From Phytopythium helicoides (lineage: Eukaryota > Oomycota > Peronosporomycetes > Pythiales > Pythiaceae): a DNA stretch of 64,000 nt. Shown piece after piece: positions 8,836 through 18,496 of the stretch (the first letter of the stretch is position 1; every line of letters begins with the position of its first letter). Location: positions 62,001 through 126,000 of the forward strand of contig JANFNE010000013.1 of the NCBI GenBank assembly GCA_024867545.1. The letters run 5' to 3'. The notes beneath the pieces were generated by a model. It had not been told where the DNA came from, ran no database searches, and was given only the letters and a program-made list of their open reading frames with translations. Position numbers and translations under genes: made by a program.

Positions 8836-10070
8836 CTAGTAGAGGCTTTTCGTCGGCATCAGTGGCGAGAACGTAGCCAGAGTCCCACAGTAGAGCAAGC
8901 CGCAGCAGACCCGAGAGCTGTCCAAAGTTAATTTGAATGGCTGGAGCCGATTGTTGACCTCTTCAGGAAGCTTGACGGACTTGCTGAGATCGAAGTCGAG
9001 TCCAGAGTCGAGTTCATGCAGTCGAAAGTACTCTCGAGCGAGATCAGCGGACGTGGATATTGGGTCATTGCCGCTAGACCCAGTTCTCCACAAGGAAGTG
9101 AGACTAGTGCTTACATCCTGGGCTGCTGGATCTGGAACTGAAATACCTGTTGTACCCAGCATCATATTAGGGAGGGCAGCTTCCCGTGGTATCGTTATGG
9201 TCTCCATTTCTAGTATGACCGCCCCACTGCTGTCTCCAATCGACCGTGAAGCTGATTCAGATCCGCCGGTAATTGTTTGGCGTGCTTGGTGCTCCTGAAC
9301 CCATCGATTCAAGAGCTCGGATGGTTCTGGAAGGCACCATTTATCATTATCCCATGCGTCTGTTTCGAGAACTGCGCAGGTGACGAGCGTGGAAGCTGAG
9401 CATGCTCCTTTTGAAGATCGACGACATCGCTCTTCCGCCGAATCAAAGAGAATGACCGGAATTTCGTTTGAGTCCTGCTCATCAACCAAAGAGATCTTGC
9501 TCATGTGAGGCTGAAGCTCGTTCACAGTCCACTTTCTGTCGAGCTTTTCATCATTCCATAACCGAATGCCGACGCCGTTCAACGATGACAGTCTTGAGAG
9601 CTCGTGACTTCTCACTGCGCACTTACTAGTTGCAGCCAGTTTGCGGTAATAACACAATCTCGAAGTAGACGATGCATCTGGATCGAGTCTGCACCCCTTG
9701 TTTTCAATGTCTTGCTCTGAAAGCGTGACGGACGCCATGGGTGTCCCACAACTCGTGAAAATCTGAACAAATTGTTCATTCTTGTCCGAGTCCGTGGAGG
9801 ACAGCCGCCCAGATTCCCAAACAAGTGCACGCTGGAGCAGTCCAGGAGCGTCGTCGAATTCCAATTCGTGTGAATCCAACAAAGCCGAGATTGCCGAGGA
9901 CAATACGATGTGAGTCGGATCATTGAATGAAGCCAATCTATTGCCGTGCAGGTGGTGATTATAGTAGAACGCGGTGACATCCACGCCGTGAGGCAGCGGC
10001 AGCGCGGACTCGTCAAGCATGCCGAGCGCCGAGAACAGCGACCACGACCAGCGTGAAGTGGTGACAATGC
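8836..10070 (-). CDS. Receptor-type ectodomain protein without kinase (copy B)
   Basis: A long minus-strand frame homologous to the ectodomain of receptor kinases C and D. It has LLQRALVWESG, VQIFTSCGTPM, internal cysteines and the distal cluster ending DNDKWC followed by a tryptophan. Where C and D have a transmembrane helix, this frame continues in soluble, Ser/Thr-rich sequence and stops at 8836. There is therefore no visible membrane anchor and no kinase. The start is unclear: no good in-frame ATG precedes the conserved part. A neighbouring frame encodes a signal-peptide-like FTLVVVAVLGARHA at about 10015-10060, so one indel may hide the true start. It may be a secreted decoy-like protein, or a truncated receptor. 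The ligand is unknown. Confidence 0.6.
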
Positions 10071-10198
10071 AACGCAGTATTAATAGACGCAAGGGGCAAG
10101 CGGAAATAGCGGGCTTCGAGCTGATGCGTGGCAAACAGAAGCCTCGAACGATGCCCCTGCACCAGTGTCTGACCAATGAAACGCAACTCACCAAAAAG

Positions 10199-10505
10199 CA
10201 TCAACTTGGACAGGACCAACGTTACTTCGTTTCCATCTTGGATTGATGAGTGGCTGACGTTTCCAGGGCCACTTACCTTCTCGGAGCGGTTTTCGGCTGC
10301 TGGATCCGCCTACTGTGCAGATCGCGATCGGATCTTTGCAGGAGAGCAGTTCGCTTTCTCGACACCCTCGACCGCTGAACGCTCTCGACTGCAAGATGCT
10401 TCTAGAGACAACTGGGACTATTTGAAGCGCGGAGTGGCATGCACGCCAACGATAATGTATCGTTATCCGCTGGGCCTGGAGGACCTCTTTAGCCGAGCTT
10501 CCTGA
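10199..10505 (+). pseudogene. C-terminal fragment of an LRR/TM family gene (copy F1)
   Basis: About 100 codons match the last part of the full-length copy at 50388-52498: a last LRR-like unit (INLDRTNVTS), the signature FPSWIDEWLTFPG, SAYCADRDRIFAGEQ and the ending YPLGLEDLF. No membrane region precedes it. It starts abruptly next to the 5' end of ectodomain gene B on the other strand, so it is a truncated duplicate. Confidence 0.8.
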
Positions 10506-10778: not shown

Positions 10779-12643
10779 ATGGCGACCGCGCTGCTGCCCG
10801 CTGCGGCGCCGCTGGGCGCGCGCGCGGCCGTCGACGCCGTCGCGCCGCTCGCCTGTCGCTTCCGACTCGAGTTCTCGCGCGACGCGCGCACGCGCGAGCT
10901 GCGCTGGGTGCTGTTCTGCGGTGCGTGGCGTTGGTTTTCGGCTCGTCAGACGGGGACGAGGAGCTCATGAGGGTGCGCAGCCGCCAGGCGCGGGGCCGCC
11001 GGCAAGCTCGTGTTCACGCTGGAGCGCGGCGGGGAGGCCGCGCACGTCAAGGCGCTGGCCGTGGGCCGCGAGTGGCGCGGGCTCGGGCTCGCGCGCGTGC
11101 TGTTCCTGGCCTGCCGCGCGACGCTCATGGAGCTCGGCGTGCAGCGCGTCGAGCTTGAGGCCGAGGAGGACGCGCGCAGGTGCGGCTGCTGAGCGGATAA
11201 TGGGAGGGACGGGGACTGACGTACGGCTGGCGCAGGCACGGCAAGCTCGTGGCGCTCTACGAGGACTGGGGCTTTCAGGTCACGCCCGGTGCCAAGGTGC
11301 TCTTCCTCTACAACGACGCCGAGTGCTTCCGCAAGGTGCCCATGGCGCTCACGCTGCGCACCGAGCGACCGCCAGCCATCAAGCCCACGGCCGCCGCGCC
11401 CTCGGCCGCCAACTGGTTCTGCATGCTCACGCTGCGCGCCGCAGACGGCTCGTGCCTCGCCGCCACCGAGGACGGAGAGATCGAGGCGCGCCCGGACGGT
11501 GACCGCGACGCGCTCTGGCAGACGCTGCTCGGCGCAGAGAGCGGAGAGGTATTCCTGCGCAGCGCGCACGGCAAGTTCCTGTGCGTCGAGGAGAGTGGCC
11601 ACGTGCTGGCCGACCGACCGCTCAACTCGACGTGGGAGACGTTCCAGGTCGTGCCGCTGCACGATCAGAGCGGCGTCGCGCTGCGCAACTTCCACGGCGG
11701 ATACCTGTGCATCGACTCGGACCACCACACGGTGGTGTCGTCTCGCGAGCCCGTGCCGTGGGACGGCGGTAGCGACCTCATGTCGCTCGTCTGCAACAAA
11801 CACGACGCCCGCCCGCTTTACGCGAGGATCATGCGCAAGCACCAGACAAAGGCGTTCGTTAAGCGGGAGATTAACAAGTTCGGTGGGTTTCAGCGAGCAG
11901 CCTGGTCAGGTCCGGGACGCGTGCTATCGAGTGATGGATCTTGTGGGAGACACAGCCATCAGCGAGAGCTGGATCCTACGCTACATGCTGGCGTCCGCGC
12001 AGGCCGTGCGAAGCGATGGTCACCCGGATTGGCTCCAGCTTGCAACATTTCTGTGAGTGATTGTCGACGTGGCGCCTTGTGTTTGACTCTAGCGCTCACT
12101 TTTGTGTCCTTTCGATTGTTCAGACGTGCGCTGGGGCTGCTGTTCTTGCAATGGACAGACGACGAAAACGCCGTGCTACGCAGCATTTCCGCCCACGAGT
12201 GGCTCGCGTCGAACTCAACGTGGCTTCTTGACGCGCGAATCCCTGACGCGATTGACTTTCCGGAGCTCAATGAGCTGAACGCAGACCACAAAAGTGCTGG
12301 GTCGTCACCACTGGCTTCTGTAGACGCGATGGATGACTCGTTGCTCATGCCGTGGACTCCCGACGAATACTTGTACCGAGCGCTGGTGCACAACAAGTCG
12401 TCATTGCCAGCAGAAGCGCTCGCTGTCATTCGCCTGTGGTCACTCAAGCCGTGGTACATCCACGGGAGTTATTCCAAGGAGCTTTCGTCAGCCACCGACG
12501 CCGACACAAAAGAGTGGCTCAGCTCGTTAAGCCAGCTCACGCGCGTATCAGACGCCGCTATCAAAGAAGTCGACCCCGAGATGCTTCTGCCATACTACCT
12601 GTCGCTCGCAGATAAGTATCTACCAGCTATACTCGAGTGGTGA
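10779..12643 (+). CDS. GNAT / beta-trefoil / degenerate MIOX-like fusion protein
   Basis: Three domains can be read in order. First is a GNAT acetyltransferase-like core (VGREWRGLGLARVLFLA, then LYEDWGFQV), with acetyl-CoA loop R-G-L-G-L-A. Second is a fascin-like beta-trefoil with repeated turns (RAADGSCLAATEDGE, RSAHGKFLCVEESG, RNFHGGYLCIDSD). Third is a region aligning with myo-inositol oxygenase to its end (PWTPDEYLYRALVHN, PYYLSLADKYLP). MIOX opens the inositol ring using a di-iron site. Here the HD pair of LLHDLGK reads FLRALGL, GHDEY reads TPDEY and FHSFYPW reads LWSLKPW. The later Asp is also absent, so no iron site is expected. Introns lie at about 10921-10987, 11180-11235 and 12053-12123. 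One extra G near 11883 breaks the frame. Binding or scaffold function is inferred. Confidence 0.75.
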
Positions 12644-12801: not shown

Positions 12802-15243
12802 TCAGAGTACTTGTGATGATGCGCGCACCAGGGTGATCAGAGGCGAACGAGTTGTTGGCGAAAATCGAGGAGACTCATGACTGCATCCGGAAGATGATGA
12901 AGAAGACGGAGAAAGAATAAGCACACGACTAGAGTGCCGCAGCGGAGAAGACGAAGTAATCCGACCAGCTGCTAATCGGATAGAGCGCTCAGGCGAATAC
13001 TCGAGCGCTAGAGAGAGGCCTCGTGCACTGACACTACTCGGAGTTTTCGAAAGCAACGAAGCCTTGCTCTTTTGCTTCTTGGTGGGTGACACAAAAGCCT
13101 GTCCCGCCAATGCGCGCATCAAATCTAACTTCATCTTCAGGCGCTTTCCGGCTGATTTTGTACGACTTCGACCTCGAGAGCCACCCGCTTGACCTCGTAA
13201 TCAACAATCCATTTGACCACTGAGCGTACATTTTCGGGCGATGGAGACGGATACGAGCTGAACCCACCCGCAACGCGTGCAGGGAGTTGCACGCCGCGAG
13301 TTTTGATGTCTGTGAGTTGACGTACAACATGTCGCCACTGAAAGCGAAGCTCATCTCTCTCAGCGCGGATGATCTCTAGCTTTGTTTGTGTACGGCATTA
13401 GCTGCTCTCGATCTCGCTCGATGCGAGCTGATTCCTCTTTTGCTCGGTCAACTTGAGCTTGAATACTAGCGACGGATGCAAGCCAATCAGAACGCCATTG
13501 GTCAACGAGTGCATCATACTGCTGCTCAAATTGCGCCTCAACGAGTAAAGACACCTGTCGCTTAACTCGGGCTTCGTGTGCTTGCCAGTGATAAGTGTCA
13601 CCTCCATACCATGACAAGTCTTCTAGTGCCATACTGCGCAATTCCCTAGCCTCTGAAAGCTGACGTTGAATTGCTGTCATTTCTCTATCGTGATGTTCGG
13701 CAAGTGCTTGACAACGGTTCATCCACTCATCGCGCTCATTTATTAACTGCTGTATCTGGTTTTCCAATCTCTTTCTAGTCTCTTCGAGTCCAAAAGCTGT
13801 GGTTTGGATCGCATCATACTTTGCGAGGGCAGAACGAGTTGCTGCTCGTTCGTGCTTCAGCTCATTAGCAAGGGCAACATCAAGTGGTCCACGGCACTGA
13901 CGACATACTCTTGGCAGTGTCGGGATATCAGTGTCTGCGCTGCACATACTATGCTGTTTCCCTTTGCAATTGGCATTTGGCAGCGAGGGTAGATTAAATT
14001 GCCAGGTGATATGCTCTTCAGCGCTGCATCTAGTTTTTTCATCAGCATCCATCAGTTCTGTATAGTCGACCCGTGGTGACGCTAAAAAGGTTTTAATGTT
14101 GGCGTCTGCAGGTACAAAAGCGACCTTTATCGCCCTCGCAGCAATGAGTGCGATATCACTCGTGCTGCCAGGTTTGGGAAGCTTAAGCAACGCAAACTCT
14201 AGTTCCACAGCTAGCAAAAGTATCCCATGATTTTCACGAAGATGCAGTAAAAGCCGAGTGACGATTTCCTGGATTTTTTGCTTTGTGGTAGCTGTCGTAA
14301 TACCCAATGTCATCTTCTCATGCTGGCCACTGGCACAGCATTTGCACGAACATTCTGTAGATACATTTTCTTCATGTAGTGATATCTGACACACGGGCTG
14401 TGCTCCACTTTGGAGATTATTTTTCATCTCAAGGGCAGCAACAACCACTTTATTGCTTCCACTAATGTGCTCCTGCAGACAACATGGCGCTGGCCCGTTG
14501 TAACCTACAGTTGCGGGATCGTTGGCGGAAATTCGTGCCTTTTCGTCAGCAGTATTCAGTGATTCGGAAGACAAGAATTGCAACGTTAGCTCACGCGCAC
14601 ACAGCGTTCGGATCAACTTGTCTAGATCGTGCTCTGTGAGCAATCGTGGGCCAACATCAAGCTGTTGAGTAGCAATAGCCACACATACGATAGGCTTGTT
14701 ATCGATGCCATTATCGGAGTTTCGTTTATTGACCTTCGTGGTCTTTTTGTGACGGGTACTTGCCAGATCCTGGAGTGAAATACATTGAACGAAAGTAAAT
14801 TTTCAAGCCTAGTAGTTTCCATGACTAGAGGCGCTTACCTGAAGGTGCGCTTCGAATCGCAACAAATTGGTCTGAACTACGTCGTGCGATACAATAATTA
14901 CACTTAGAGCTGAGTTTCGATCTCCCATCGAAGTAGTGCTGATCCAGCCTTCTAGTAAACCTTCCGACCCGATAAGAGCTGTAGCAGGAATGGCCACGCC
15001 GTGCAGTCCTTCTAATCGTTTCATGAGCCAGTATGTTGAGCGCTGACGCCCTGACATTTTGATACTCTGCGCCAGGCGCTTCATCTGCCACTCACTATCT
15101 CGCCCTTTCCCTTCTATTGACAATTTAGAAATTGAGCGGGGTGCGATTCTTTCGCTGGGGTGGGCTCTGTCGCTATTTTTGCCATTGTGACCCGATATCT
15201 GCTTCTGCCTCACTGCAATGACGTGCGACGCTCGAGCTTCCAC
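12802..15243 (-). CDS. Coiled-coil protein of unknown function with CxxC motifs
   Basis: I do not recognise a family. The first exon (15243 down to about 14840) ends at FEAHLQ. It is spliced through a 69-nt GT..AG intron to DLASTRHKKTTKV, and the long second exon continues in frame. The middle has a cysteine cluster (CSCKCCASG) and a CRQC motif that could bind metal. From about 13870 down the protein is a charged coiled coil (ERDEWMNRCQALAEHHDRE and beyond). An extra A near 13380 causes an apparent stop; removing it continues into KLEIIRAERDELRFQW. The last part, down to 12802, needs one further frame change and ends in a Ser-rich tail with KKQKSK, nuclear-signal-like. Its start overlaps the end of the next gene by about 30 bp, so the true ATG may be internal. 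Confidence 0.55.
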
Positions 15244-18200
15244 ATTGCCTGAAATTTGTCATTGCTTTGGGGAGAAGCAGCTGAGAAGGTTTCGCTCAAA
15301 GTTGGATGCTGGCGACGAAGTCTCTCTCGTCCTTTGAGTGCCCTAGGAGAGCTTTGTGCCACTGCCGAACCCTGAGGTGGTGCAATGAGAGCAATGTGAC
15401 GATGATTTGCTGGAATACCTTGAGTCCTGCTTCTGGCGATAGGCGCTTCACTGTTATCCCCTGATAGTGCATCCCTTGACAAAAAAGAACCCCCTAGATG
15501 ACTTGATGCGGGTTTGAGAGTGGTGCGTGGAGACATTGCACCCTCCCAAGTCATCGGTGGTGAACGGAAGCTGGTTGAAAAAGAGATACCTGTGGGGCTT
15601 AGCTGCTGCAAAGATACAGGCTCTACGGATGTTCGTGGTGAAGTTGGGCAAACTGCTAAGACAGGAAGCGCTTCAACTTGAGTCGTACTCCGAGGGCCAG
15701 TATAGACATTAGTGGCTGCTATAGTCGAACGATCTTTGATTGCTGGGACCACGGCGAATAATCTTGAGAAAGCACTATCATGTCCTGCTCGCTGTTTCTT
15801 GTCTTTTAGATGACGAGCAAGCTGGGTTGTTGCTACAGGCTCCACCATTTCTTGACACTTCGCCCCTGCTGATGCACGACTTATCGCCACACATTTATCT
15901 CCACCTGCGCTGCTAGTTCCCAATAGCTGCCAAGGACGGTCAGCATGATAAAAGTAACGCTGGTGATCGGCCACCTCTGCATTCCATTTGTGCCGCTCGA
16001 GCAAAGCGCTACGGATTTGTGAAAGGCTAGTCGGTCCCAGCCGGCGCCATCCTCGCTCAGGTAATTCAAGTACTTGCAAATGAGAGCAGCTCATATACAC
16101 GGTCCCGAGCTCCATAGCCGAAATATCTTCATTCACTGTTGACCCGGGGCTGGCGCTTATAGTTGCAATTGTCGCACCAAAAAACTCCTGGGGACCTATC
16201 GTCGCCACACGAACGAGTGCAGGGCGGTTAATGGCAAAGGTTGTGCCCGCGGCATTTTGTATGGATGGTTGACTTGGCACCAACTTTCGTACAAACACCC
16301 CGACTTCCCCGCTTTTGACAATGAACAATACACGGCGGTCGACTTGGTCCTGAAAGAACCGATGCCGTGGGTCAAAGGTACGTTCAACAACATCGTGTGC
16401 AACCCGTATGCATTCACCAAATGCATCTTCACTCGCTCCTTCTTCGATTTCGCTCGCAGTCATCGATTTCGGAGGTTTCATGAAAGATAATCGGGCTAGG
16501 AATTCAGCGCGTTCAACCATGACGTGTTGCACTGAGACTCCAGGAAGAGCACGCTGAAGGTGAGCGAGGTGCTCGCGATCAAATGCAATCAAATCAGCAC
16601 TAAGTGGTGCCATGGCCGTGGCTGAGCGTCGCAGTTTGGCTACTAGAGACAGCTCACCGAAGGAATCTCCTGCTCCGAGCGTTGCGAGTACTTCACTTCC
16701 ACTCGCTCCACGCTCGTTTACGATGGCAATTTTGCCGCGGAGAATCAAGAATGCACGACTCTCGACACGACCTTGCCTGAACAGTAGCTGTCCTTTTGAT
16801 GCACGAACAAAAATCACAACTTGAGCAAGGGCTCGTGCCACTTGCAGTGATGATACGTGAGAGGGGCGCTCGATTTTGTTGATAAGAGCGGATCGTTCAA
16901 TGAGCCTCGTGACAAACGCAATGTCTGCTACGGAACGTGCATTGGAAGGGAGAGCCAATACCCGACGAGTTTCGGATCTCACAACCCCGAGCGATGCGAC
17001 TGTCAGTGGGATCTGCATTGACGCATCGAGTGCGAGGCTCGCAATGATTTTTTCTACTAGCGGCGATAACTCACCTTTGGTTTCGTCGTCTCCACCACGG
17101 ATAAGTGCGGACTCATCTCGGAGGCGCCGCAGTAGGTCGAGGTAAGCGGATTTACCGTCAAAGAGTTGTTGGTATGCAGCTTTGAATCGCTGGATGAAAG
17201 TTACGAGGTGTCGGGCGACTCGAGGATTAGAGAGTCGAAGACGACGTGCGTTGGTTGCTAGTGTCCACTCATCAGCAAGCATGGACGCTAGCGCTGATTC
17301 CTCTTCTTCATCAGCGTTGAGACCTTCCCGAACGCCTTGATCAAGCAGTGCTGTGGATTCTGAAGTCTCCTCACGTAGACGCTTAGCAGCTAAGTAGAGT
17401 GCACGAGTGATGACAATACACGCGATCCCCGTCGATCTTGATGTCATGCCACCGTCGTTATCGGACGGAGATCCAACAGCGATGACACTGGCAACGCGCG
17501 CACGCCCAAGTAAGGCCATCTCGCCAAAGCTCTGGAATGGACCCTTGCGAGCAAGAACTGCAGACTCTACCGCTCGGGTGTCTCGTTCGCTGTTGTCTAT
17601 GCTTGTAAAAGGATGACAAGGATCGCTGCTTTCTGCATTGTCATCGGCTTCGTCTAATACTACGTCGGCTTCGCCCTCAATGACGATAAAGAACCGATCA
17701 TCATGCGTGTCTCGCTGCTCACATATTCGGGTCCCGGGAGCAAAGCGAGCGAACTCGCAGCGCTCAAGGATATATCGCCGCTGGAGTGGCCGCCATGCAC
17801 GGAAGAGTCGCTCTCGGTCCAATACTCGATGAGTTCGCAGAAGTGAACGCGCATACATAAGTTCATGCAACGGCTTGAGCAGCAATGCGAACGCGTCCTC
17901 TCTCATCACGAGGCAGGAAACAGCAGGAAGCTCATCACTTTCTTTTTCTGCTTCGCTGGCCATGGTCTCATTAGGCAAAGCAACCGCGTTCGTGGGTCGC
18001 AGATTTGTACCAGAGAGCAGTGGAGTCTCACCAAAGTACTCGTGCGACTCCACGACTTCAATCAGCATTTCGCTCTCGGCCTCTGATGGAGATCTTTTTT
18101 TCCCGGCAAGTGGAGGAGCATTTCGGACCTGAGCATGGAGCTTGTCGGTATAACGCTTGGTGAGTGCTACCCGCCCGCGCTCTACGAAGAAGAGATCGCG

Positions 18201-18383
18201 CGACCCGGACTGACCCTGCGTAAATATGTACTCTCCAGCATAAAATTCTCGCGGCGCCATGGAGGCTACCAAAGACTCCAATGAGCACTCGCCGCGTCGA
18301 ATAGCTTGAGCAAGCAGCGGCACTTGCTTGACAAGTGCAAGTGCTCGCTCAATTGGGTCGGACCCTTTTGAACTCGGCTCCAT
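15210..18383 (-). CDS. Large protein with four cyclic-nucleotide-binding-like domains
   Basis: A single 1057-codon frame without introns. It contains four cNBD/CAP_ED-type beta-barrels at roughly residues 50-170, 205-325, 520-625 and 655-790. Each has the 'capture' strand and a phosphate-cassette-like FGE: YFGETPLL, SFGEMALL, SFGELSL and FFGATIA. The third (FGELSLVAKLRRSATAMA) keeps the Arg and Ala-Thr of PKA regulatory subunits and is the best candidate to bind a cyclic nucleotide. The others are degraded. There is no kinase, channel, pseudosubstrate or docking domain, and the C-terminal 200 residues are Ser/Pro-rich and probably disordered. The role is likely cNMP sensing or scaffolding. 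The ATG at 18383 is the first in frame. A 46-bp palindrome lies 114 bp upstream. Confidence 0.85.
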   Translation of the reverse strand: MEPSSKGSDPIERALALVKQVPLLAQAIRRGECSLESLVASMAPREFYAGEYIFTQGQSGSRDLFFVERGRVALTKRYTDKLHAQVRNAPPLAGKKRSPSEAESEMLIEVVESHEYFGETPLLSGTNLRPTNAVALPNETMASEAEKESDELPAVSCLVMREDAFALLLKPLHELMYARSLLRTHRVLDRERLFRAWRPLQRRYILERCEFARFAPGTRICEQRDTHDDRFFIVIEGEADVVLDEADDNAESSDPCHPFTSIDNSERDTRAVESAVLARKGPFQSFGEMALLGRARVASVIAVGSPSDNDGGMTSRSTGIACIVITRALYLAAKRLREETSESTALLDQGVREGLNADEEEESALASMLADEWTLATNARRLRLSNPRVARHLVTFIQRFKAAYQQLFDGKSAYLDLLRRLRDESALIRGGDDETKGELSPLVEKIIASLALDASMQIPLTVASLGVVRSETRRVLALPSNARSVADIAFVTRLIERSALINKIERPSHVSSLQVARALAQVVIFVRASKGQLLFRQGRVESRAFLILRGKIAIVNERGASGSEVLATLGAGDSFGELSLVAKLRRSATAMAPLSADLIAFDREHLAHLQRALPGVSVQHVMVERAEFLARLSFMKPPKSMTASEIEEGASEDAFGECIRVAHDVVERTFDPRHRFFQDQVDRRVLFIVKSGEVGVFVRKLVPSQPSIQNAAGTTFAINRPALVRVATIGPQEFFGATIATISASPGSTVNEDISAMELGTVYMSCSHLQVLELPERGWRRLGPTSLSQIRSALLERHKWNAEVADHQRYFYHADRPWQLLGTSSAGGDKCVAISRASAGAKCQEMVEPVATTQLARHLKDKKQRAGHDSAFSRLFAVVPAIKDRSTIAATNVYTGPRSTTQVEALPVLAVCPTSPRTSVEPVSLQQLSPTGISFSTSFRSPPMTWEGAMSPRTTLKPASSHLGGSFLSRDALSGDNSEAPIARSRTQGIPANHRHIALIAPPQGSAVAQSSPRALKGRERLRRQHPTLSETFSAASPQSNDKFQAMWKLERRTSLQ

Positions 18384-18496
18384 GTAGATGCAGCAGAGAC
18401 TTCGAAACGAGAAGGCATCGTTGCTCCAAGTTTAACCCCTTCCGACATAAATAAATGGGCCGCAAGTGATGCAGTCTCTGTATGATACGAAGTGAA

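Follow-up and report, generated by a model that had tools for sequence, protein, structure and literature searches.

What can the fold of an iron-binding oxygenase be doing in a protein that has lost the iron ligands and carries an acetyltransferase-like domain ahead of that fold? The question is raised by a gene of the oomycete Phytopythium helicoides, located at positions 10779-12643 (+) of a 64,000-nucleotide stretch of contig JANFNE010000013.1 (hereafter, the window) in a source genome of 49 Mb and 100 contigs. It is a single gene of four exons, opening with an ATG at 10779 and closing with a stop codon that ends at 12643, and it encodes, in this order, a GNAT domain, a beta-trefoil and a domain of the myo-inositol oxygenase (MIOX) fold. 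With moderate confidence, we take it to represent, in this genome, a long-established oomycete family that joins a GNAT acetyltransferase, one beta-trefoil and a MIOX-fold pseudoenzyme, the GNAT domain being the putative working part and the other two candidate binding modules.

Each domain is identified by profile and by fold. Pfam was run on separate pieces of the gene, exon 1 lying outside them, and returned Acetyltransf_1 for the GNAT piece (26.7 bits, cut-off 20.7), Fascin for the trefoil piece (26.2 bits, cut-off 23.1) and MIOX (PF05153) for the C-terminal piece (78.4 bits, cut-off 25; E 8.3e-22); the short first piece of the MIOX-like domain, taken by itself, scores 14.1 bits, under the MIOX cut-off. 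With an E-value limit of 1, the only solved structures matched by exon 4 are mouse and human MIOX (2huo, E 3.9e-16, and 2ibn), aligned to the last residue, and comparison of the predicted structure likewise places the C-terminal domain in the MIOX fold. These results agree with an earlier, sequence-only reading of the locus, which had given the gene the same two ends, had followed MIOX to its final residues in the C-terminal third and had proposed such a structure search as a check. The GNAT domain has the superfamily's fold and its acetyl-CoA motif, R/Q-x-x-G-x-G/A (RGLGLA in the window); the nearest solved sequences are Naa30 (7l1k, E 1.8e-4) and then RimI (5isv, E 0.003), and the structure matches within 1 Z, human GCN5 included, are ties. 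The trefoil is a single region (model residues about 170-290) that resembles fascin in fold and Pfam match, and designed trefoils and fibroblast growth factors fit the fold equally well. Fascin, as an actin bundler, is built of four tandem trefoils, whereas the fusion protein has one, and the anchoring to actin raised in the sequence-only reading stays conjectural.

The gene belongs to a family. A search with the window's open frame gave 40 proteins, and a profile built from 25 of these gave 42 matches, adding P0041-P0043 as fusions and P0044, a canonical fungal MIOX, so that the fusion-type proteins number 43, whole or partial. All named sources are oomycetes: Phytophthora, Nothophytophthora, Peronospora, Peronosclerospora, Hyaloperonospora, Bremia, Pythium, Globisporangium, Lagenidium, Albugo, Achlya, Thraustotheca and Aphanomyces. 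The profile search, in which 7995 candidates were scored, returned no fusion from outside the oomycetes, a result that falls short of showing absence, as P0025 and P0039 were missed though they were in the query and many matches are unnamed metagenome proteins. The search of other oomycetes for the same domain order, suggested in the sequence-only reading, thus found it repeatedly, and the further view that no described protein has this arrangement does not hold. In PifHAT2 and its oomycete homologues, as described by Wang et al. (2016, PMC5112689), AT_1 is followed by two C-terminal domains, Fascin and DUF706 (PF05153), and the window gene has these three domains in this order. The accessible text of that paper calls the combination previously unreported and describes PifHAT2 as a novel histone acetyltransferase; it also reports that all 33 predicted histone acetyltransferase genes of P. 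infestans were detected by quantitative PCR across ten stages, which by implication includes a gene of the PifHAT2 type. From its domain content, we infer that P0020 of P. infestans is PifHAT2. In the same accessible text, we found no mention of iron-site loss and no activity data for histone acetylation; the accessible part of the literature on inositol oxygenase in oomycetes yielded nothing on the fusion protein, and the open-licence literature yielded no description of a pseudo-MIOX or of ligand loss in the fusion proteins.

The family departs from the enzyme at the iron site. In the accessible text of PMC8177086, the MIOX motif consists of six iron ligands, H...HD...H...H...D. At the positions of H98, H123, D124, H194, H220 and D253, the window copy has Y, R, A, P, W and T, so that all the ligands are gone, as had been claimed from the sequence. 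We counted the ligands, with no motif selection, in the 32 of 43 relatives that fill at least 200 of 253 positions (leaving out P0024, P0029, P0031-P0038 and P0040, of which P0033 is long and covers 173 positions) and compared them with 121 canonical rows. The 32 relatives retain either none or one of the six: H98 is replaced by Y in 25, S in one and R in one and kept in five; H123 is R in 32/32; D124 is A in 20, G in 11 and S in one; H194 is P in 30, S in one and N in one; H220 is W in 26, F in three and G, Y and Q in one each; and D253 is A in 18, S in four, R in four, T in three, N in one and V in one, with one gap. In the canonical rows, every ligand is retained in 120 or 121 of 121, a conservation partly due to selection, these rows having been chosen by similarity to a canonical query. 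Misalignment is ruled out as the source of the loss, the sites lying in or adjoining well-aligned blocks.

The substrate pocket has changed as well. Among the residues that we take to contact inositol in MIOX (D85, K127, D142, S221 and K257), only S221 is generally retained, in 32/32 relatives: D85 is replaced throughout (G in 30, H in one, Q in one), K127 is M in 24 and L in eight, and D142 and K257 survive in 1/32 and 2/32, which weakens the earlier suggestion that the protein senses inositol. The scaffold persists: G, P, D and W of GHPDW, EY and R225 are present in 32/32 and the final W in 30/32. A comparison of fixed positions (a single letter in at least 95% of each group) finds 19 with the same letter in fusion and canonical proteins and six with different letters; it used a slightly different set, selected by length and by the motifs HPDW and EY, so that the invariance of these motifs is built in, and the complete P0005 is missing from it. 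The six switches, in the numbering of L002, are D83G, L118F, H120R, G138R, A198P and G200T, where D83 corresponds to the D85 contact and H120 to the H123 ligand, and L118, A198 and G200 are each no more than three residues away from a ligand. Taken together, Pfam, the relatives, the fold comparison and the ligand counts bear out the proposal that a MIOX-fold pseudoenzyme shares one polypeptide with a GNAT domain and a trefoil.

The canonical enzyme is present beside the fusion. In the source genome, the trefoil occurs once and MIOX four times, once in the fusion gene and three times as a canonical copy that retains every ligand, and fusion and canonical proteins occur together in five named species (P0004/P0048, P0030/P0056, P0028/P0064, P0025/P0075 and P0012/P0069). 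On contig C49 (249141-254366), three near-identical canonical MIOX genes (L006, L007 and L008) are packed into 5.3 kb, with the middle gene inverted relative to its neighbours, and two of the proteins differ at 1/292 residues. P0070, a MIOX found in a metagenome assembly of bacterial origin (Oligoflexales), shares 74% identity with oomycete canonical MIOX, as a result of gene transfer or contamination. A quick tree of 17 of the 43 fusion MIOX domains and 31 of the 121 canonical proteins (a pool that included P0044 and L002) separates the two groups with a Shimodaira-Hasegawa-like approximate likelihood ratio (SH-aLRT) of 100; within the fusion group, four Saprolegniales stand apart from the remaining thirteen, and the Albugo row sits on a very long branch. 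Late duplication within one genus is ruled out, as a single fusion clade covers Saprolegniales, Albugo, Pythium and Phytophthora; the simplest reading would be a single fusion event preceding the split of these oomycete orders.

How might such a protein work? The GNAT domain is probably active, because the acetyl-CoA motif and the LYxxWGF tyrosine are retained, and it would still use acetyl-CoA. The other two modules, the trefoil and a MIOX fold devoid of metal, may then serve the acetyltransferase as regulators, or as docking sites that bring it a protein partner or small ligand. The dead MIOX domain is probably kept for another job, since the oomycete relatives share the loss, and the fixed replacements at former active-site positions suggest a rebuilt pocket. 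Several observations weigh against this picture. The acetyl-CoA motif is strict in 29/43 relatives and carries Ser in 6/43, with no match in 8/43, and the tyrosine is found in 36/43 and unmatched in 7/43, fragments not being sorted out in either count; the predicted structure has a predicted template-modeling score (pTM) of 0.46, so the model does not fix domain contacts; and the accessible text of PMC8177086 cautions that sequence by itself does not reveal which cofactor and substrate an HD-domain protein uses. Mean column conservation over 25 rows is 0.79 for the GNAT domain, 0.78 for the trefoil and 0.73 for the MIOX-like part, which diverges fastest (for example, 32% between P0010 and Albugo P0039, against 50% and 47% for the other parts), a pattern also compatible with relaxed constraint.

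This divergence, together with a fold that outlived its catalytic residues, is what would be expected if the MIOX-like domain served only as a scaffold, structural or for dimerization, and bound no ligand itself, making the protein an acetyltransferase with inert appendages. We regard that alternative as possible and rather doubtful: the replacements at the former active site are themselves fixed, foremost H123 to R, and of the six group-specific positions in the motif-selected set, four plus that of D85 are a ligand or a contact, or are no further than three residues from a ligand. A bolder version of the binding-module reading, which we hold to be unlikely as it stands, would have the former di-iron pocket, now built around the invariant Arg, bind an anionic metabolite without any metal and so switch the attached acetyltransferase, as a sensor kept from Saprolegniales to Phytophthora.

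The window copy raises a doubt of its own. Exon borders were set by comparison with relatives (GT-AG sites, frame and phase) and not by RNA. Exon 1 (10779..10920, +), with its ATG, GT donor and a frame matched to relatives, encodes the N-terminus and the start of the GNAT domain; intron 1 (10921..10980, +; 60 nt, GT-AG) gives a joined phase that agrees with relatives; and exon 2 (10981..11179, +) encodes the GNAT core with the acetyl-CoA motif. After intron 2 (11180..11235, +; 56 nt, GT-AG), exon 3 (11236..12052, +) encodes the GNAT end (LYEDWGF) and holds both the trefoil and the start of the MIOX-like domain. Intron 3 (12053..12123, +; 71 nt, GT-AG) directly precedes the lost His-Asp pair, and exon 4 (12124..12643, +) encodes the remaining MIOX-like domain with the positions of H123, D124, H194, H220 and D253. 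Within exon 3, the frame moves by a net one base at about 11890-11912, where it is continuous in the closest relatives, P0001, P0024 and P0034, and the spliced gene is still not one uninterrupted protein. A short intron is rejected as the source: among 50 listed of 70 frame-restoring GT/GC-AG pairs, assessed with no RNA, all are too short or remove residues conserved in relatives.

Were the window copy a decaying pseudogene, its own ligand loss would be meaningless, and the frame change and the single trefoil, which leaves the assembly with no intact second copy, speak for this. We consider it improbable, as intact relatives show the same ligand loss and exon 4 is open up to its normal end and retains the family's letters; on this last ground, the frame change is better explained by recent damage or a faulty assembly than by decay, and the family-level conclusion is independent of the window copy. 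We give next to no credence to the idea that the fusion protein has remained an inositol oxygenase, possibly one that arranges its metal differently: sources name many relatives so and the fold is present, but five of the six ligands are lost in 32/32 rows (save the gap cell at D253), most presumed inositol contacts are replaced, canonical MIOX stands in the same genome and in the five fusion-bearing species, and the iron-free fold can hardly be an oxygenase.

Around the gene, minus-strand open frames at 8836-10200 (454 aa) and 13360-14802 (480 aa) have no Pfam match at E 0.01, and a 1073-aa open frame at 15210-18431 (-) contains cyclic-nucleotide-binding domains (Pfam, 110.7 bits, two stretches). 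The gene models of P0017 (Phytophthora kernoviae) and P0041 (Lagenidium giganteum) place a glycosyl hydrolase 18 domain (PF00704) ahead of the fusion, which may come from joining an adjacent gene to the model and would then hint at a conserved neighbour.

For the family, the database name "inositol oxygenase" is at odds with the residues, and "histone acetyltransferase" is the name given in the accessible text of PMC5112689. Oomycetes have retained, alongside canonical MIOX, a MIOX fold stripped of its iron site, which makes a clear, testable example of an enzyme fold put to another use.
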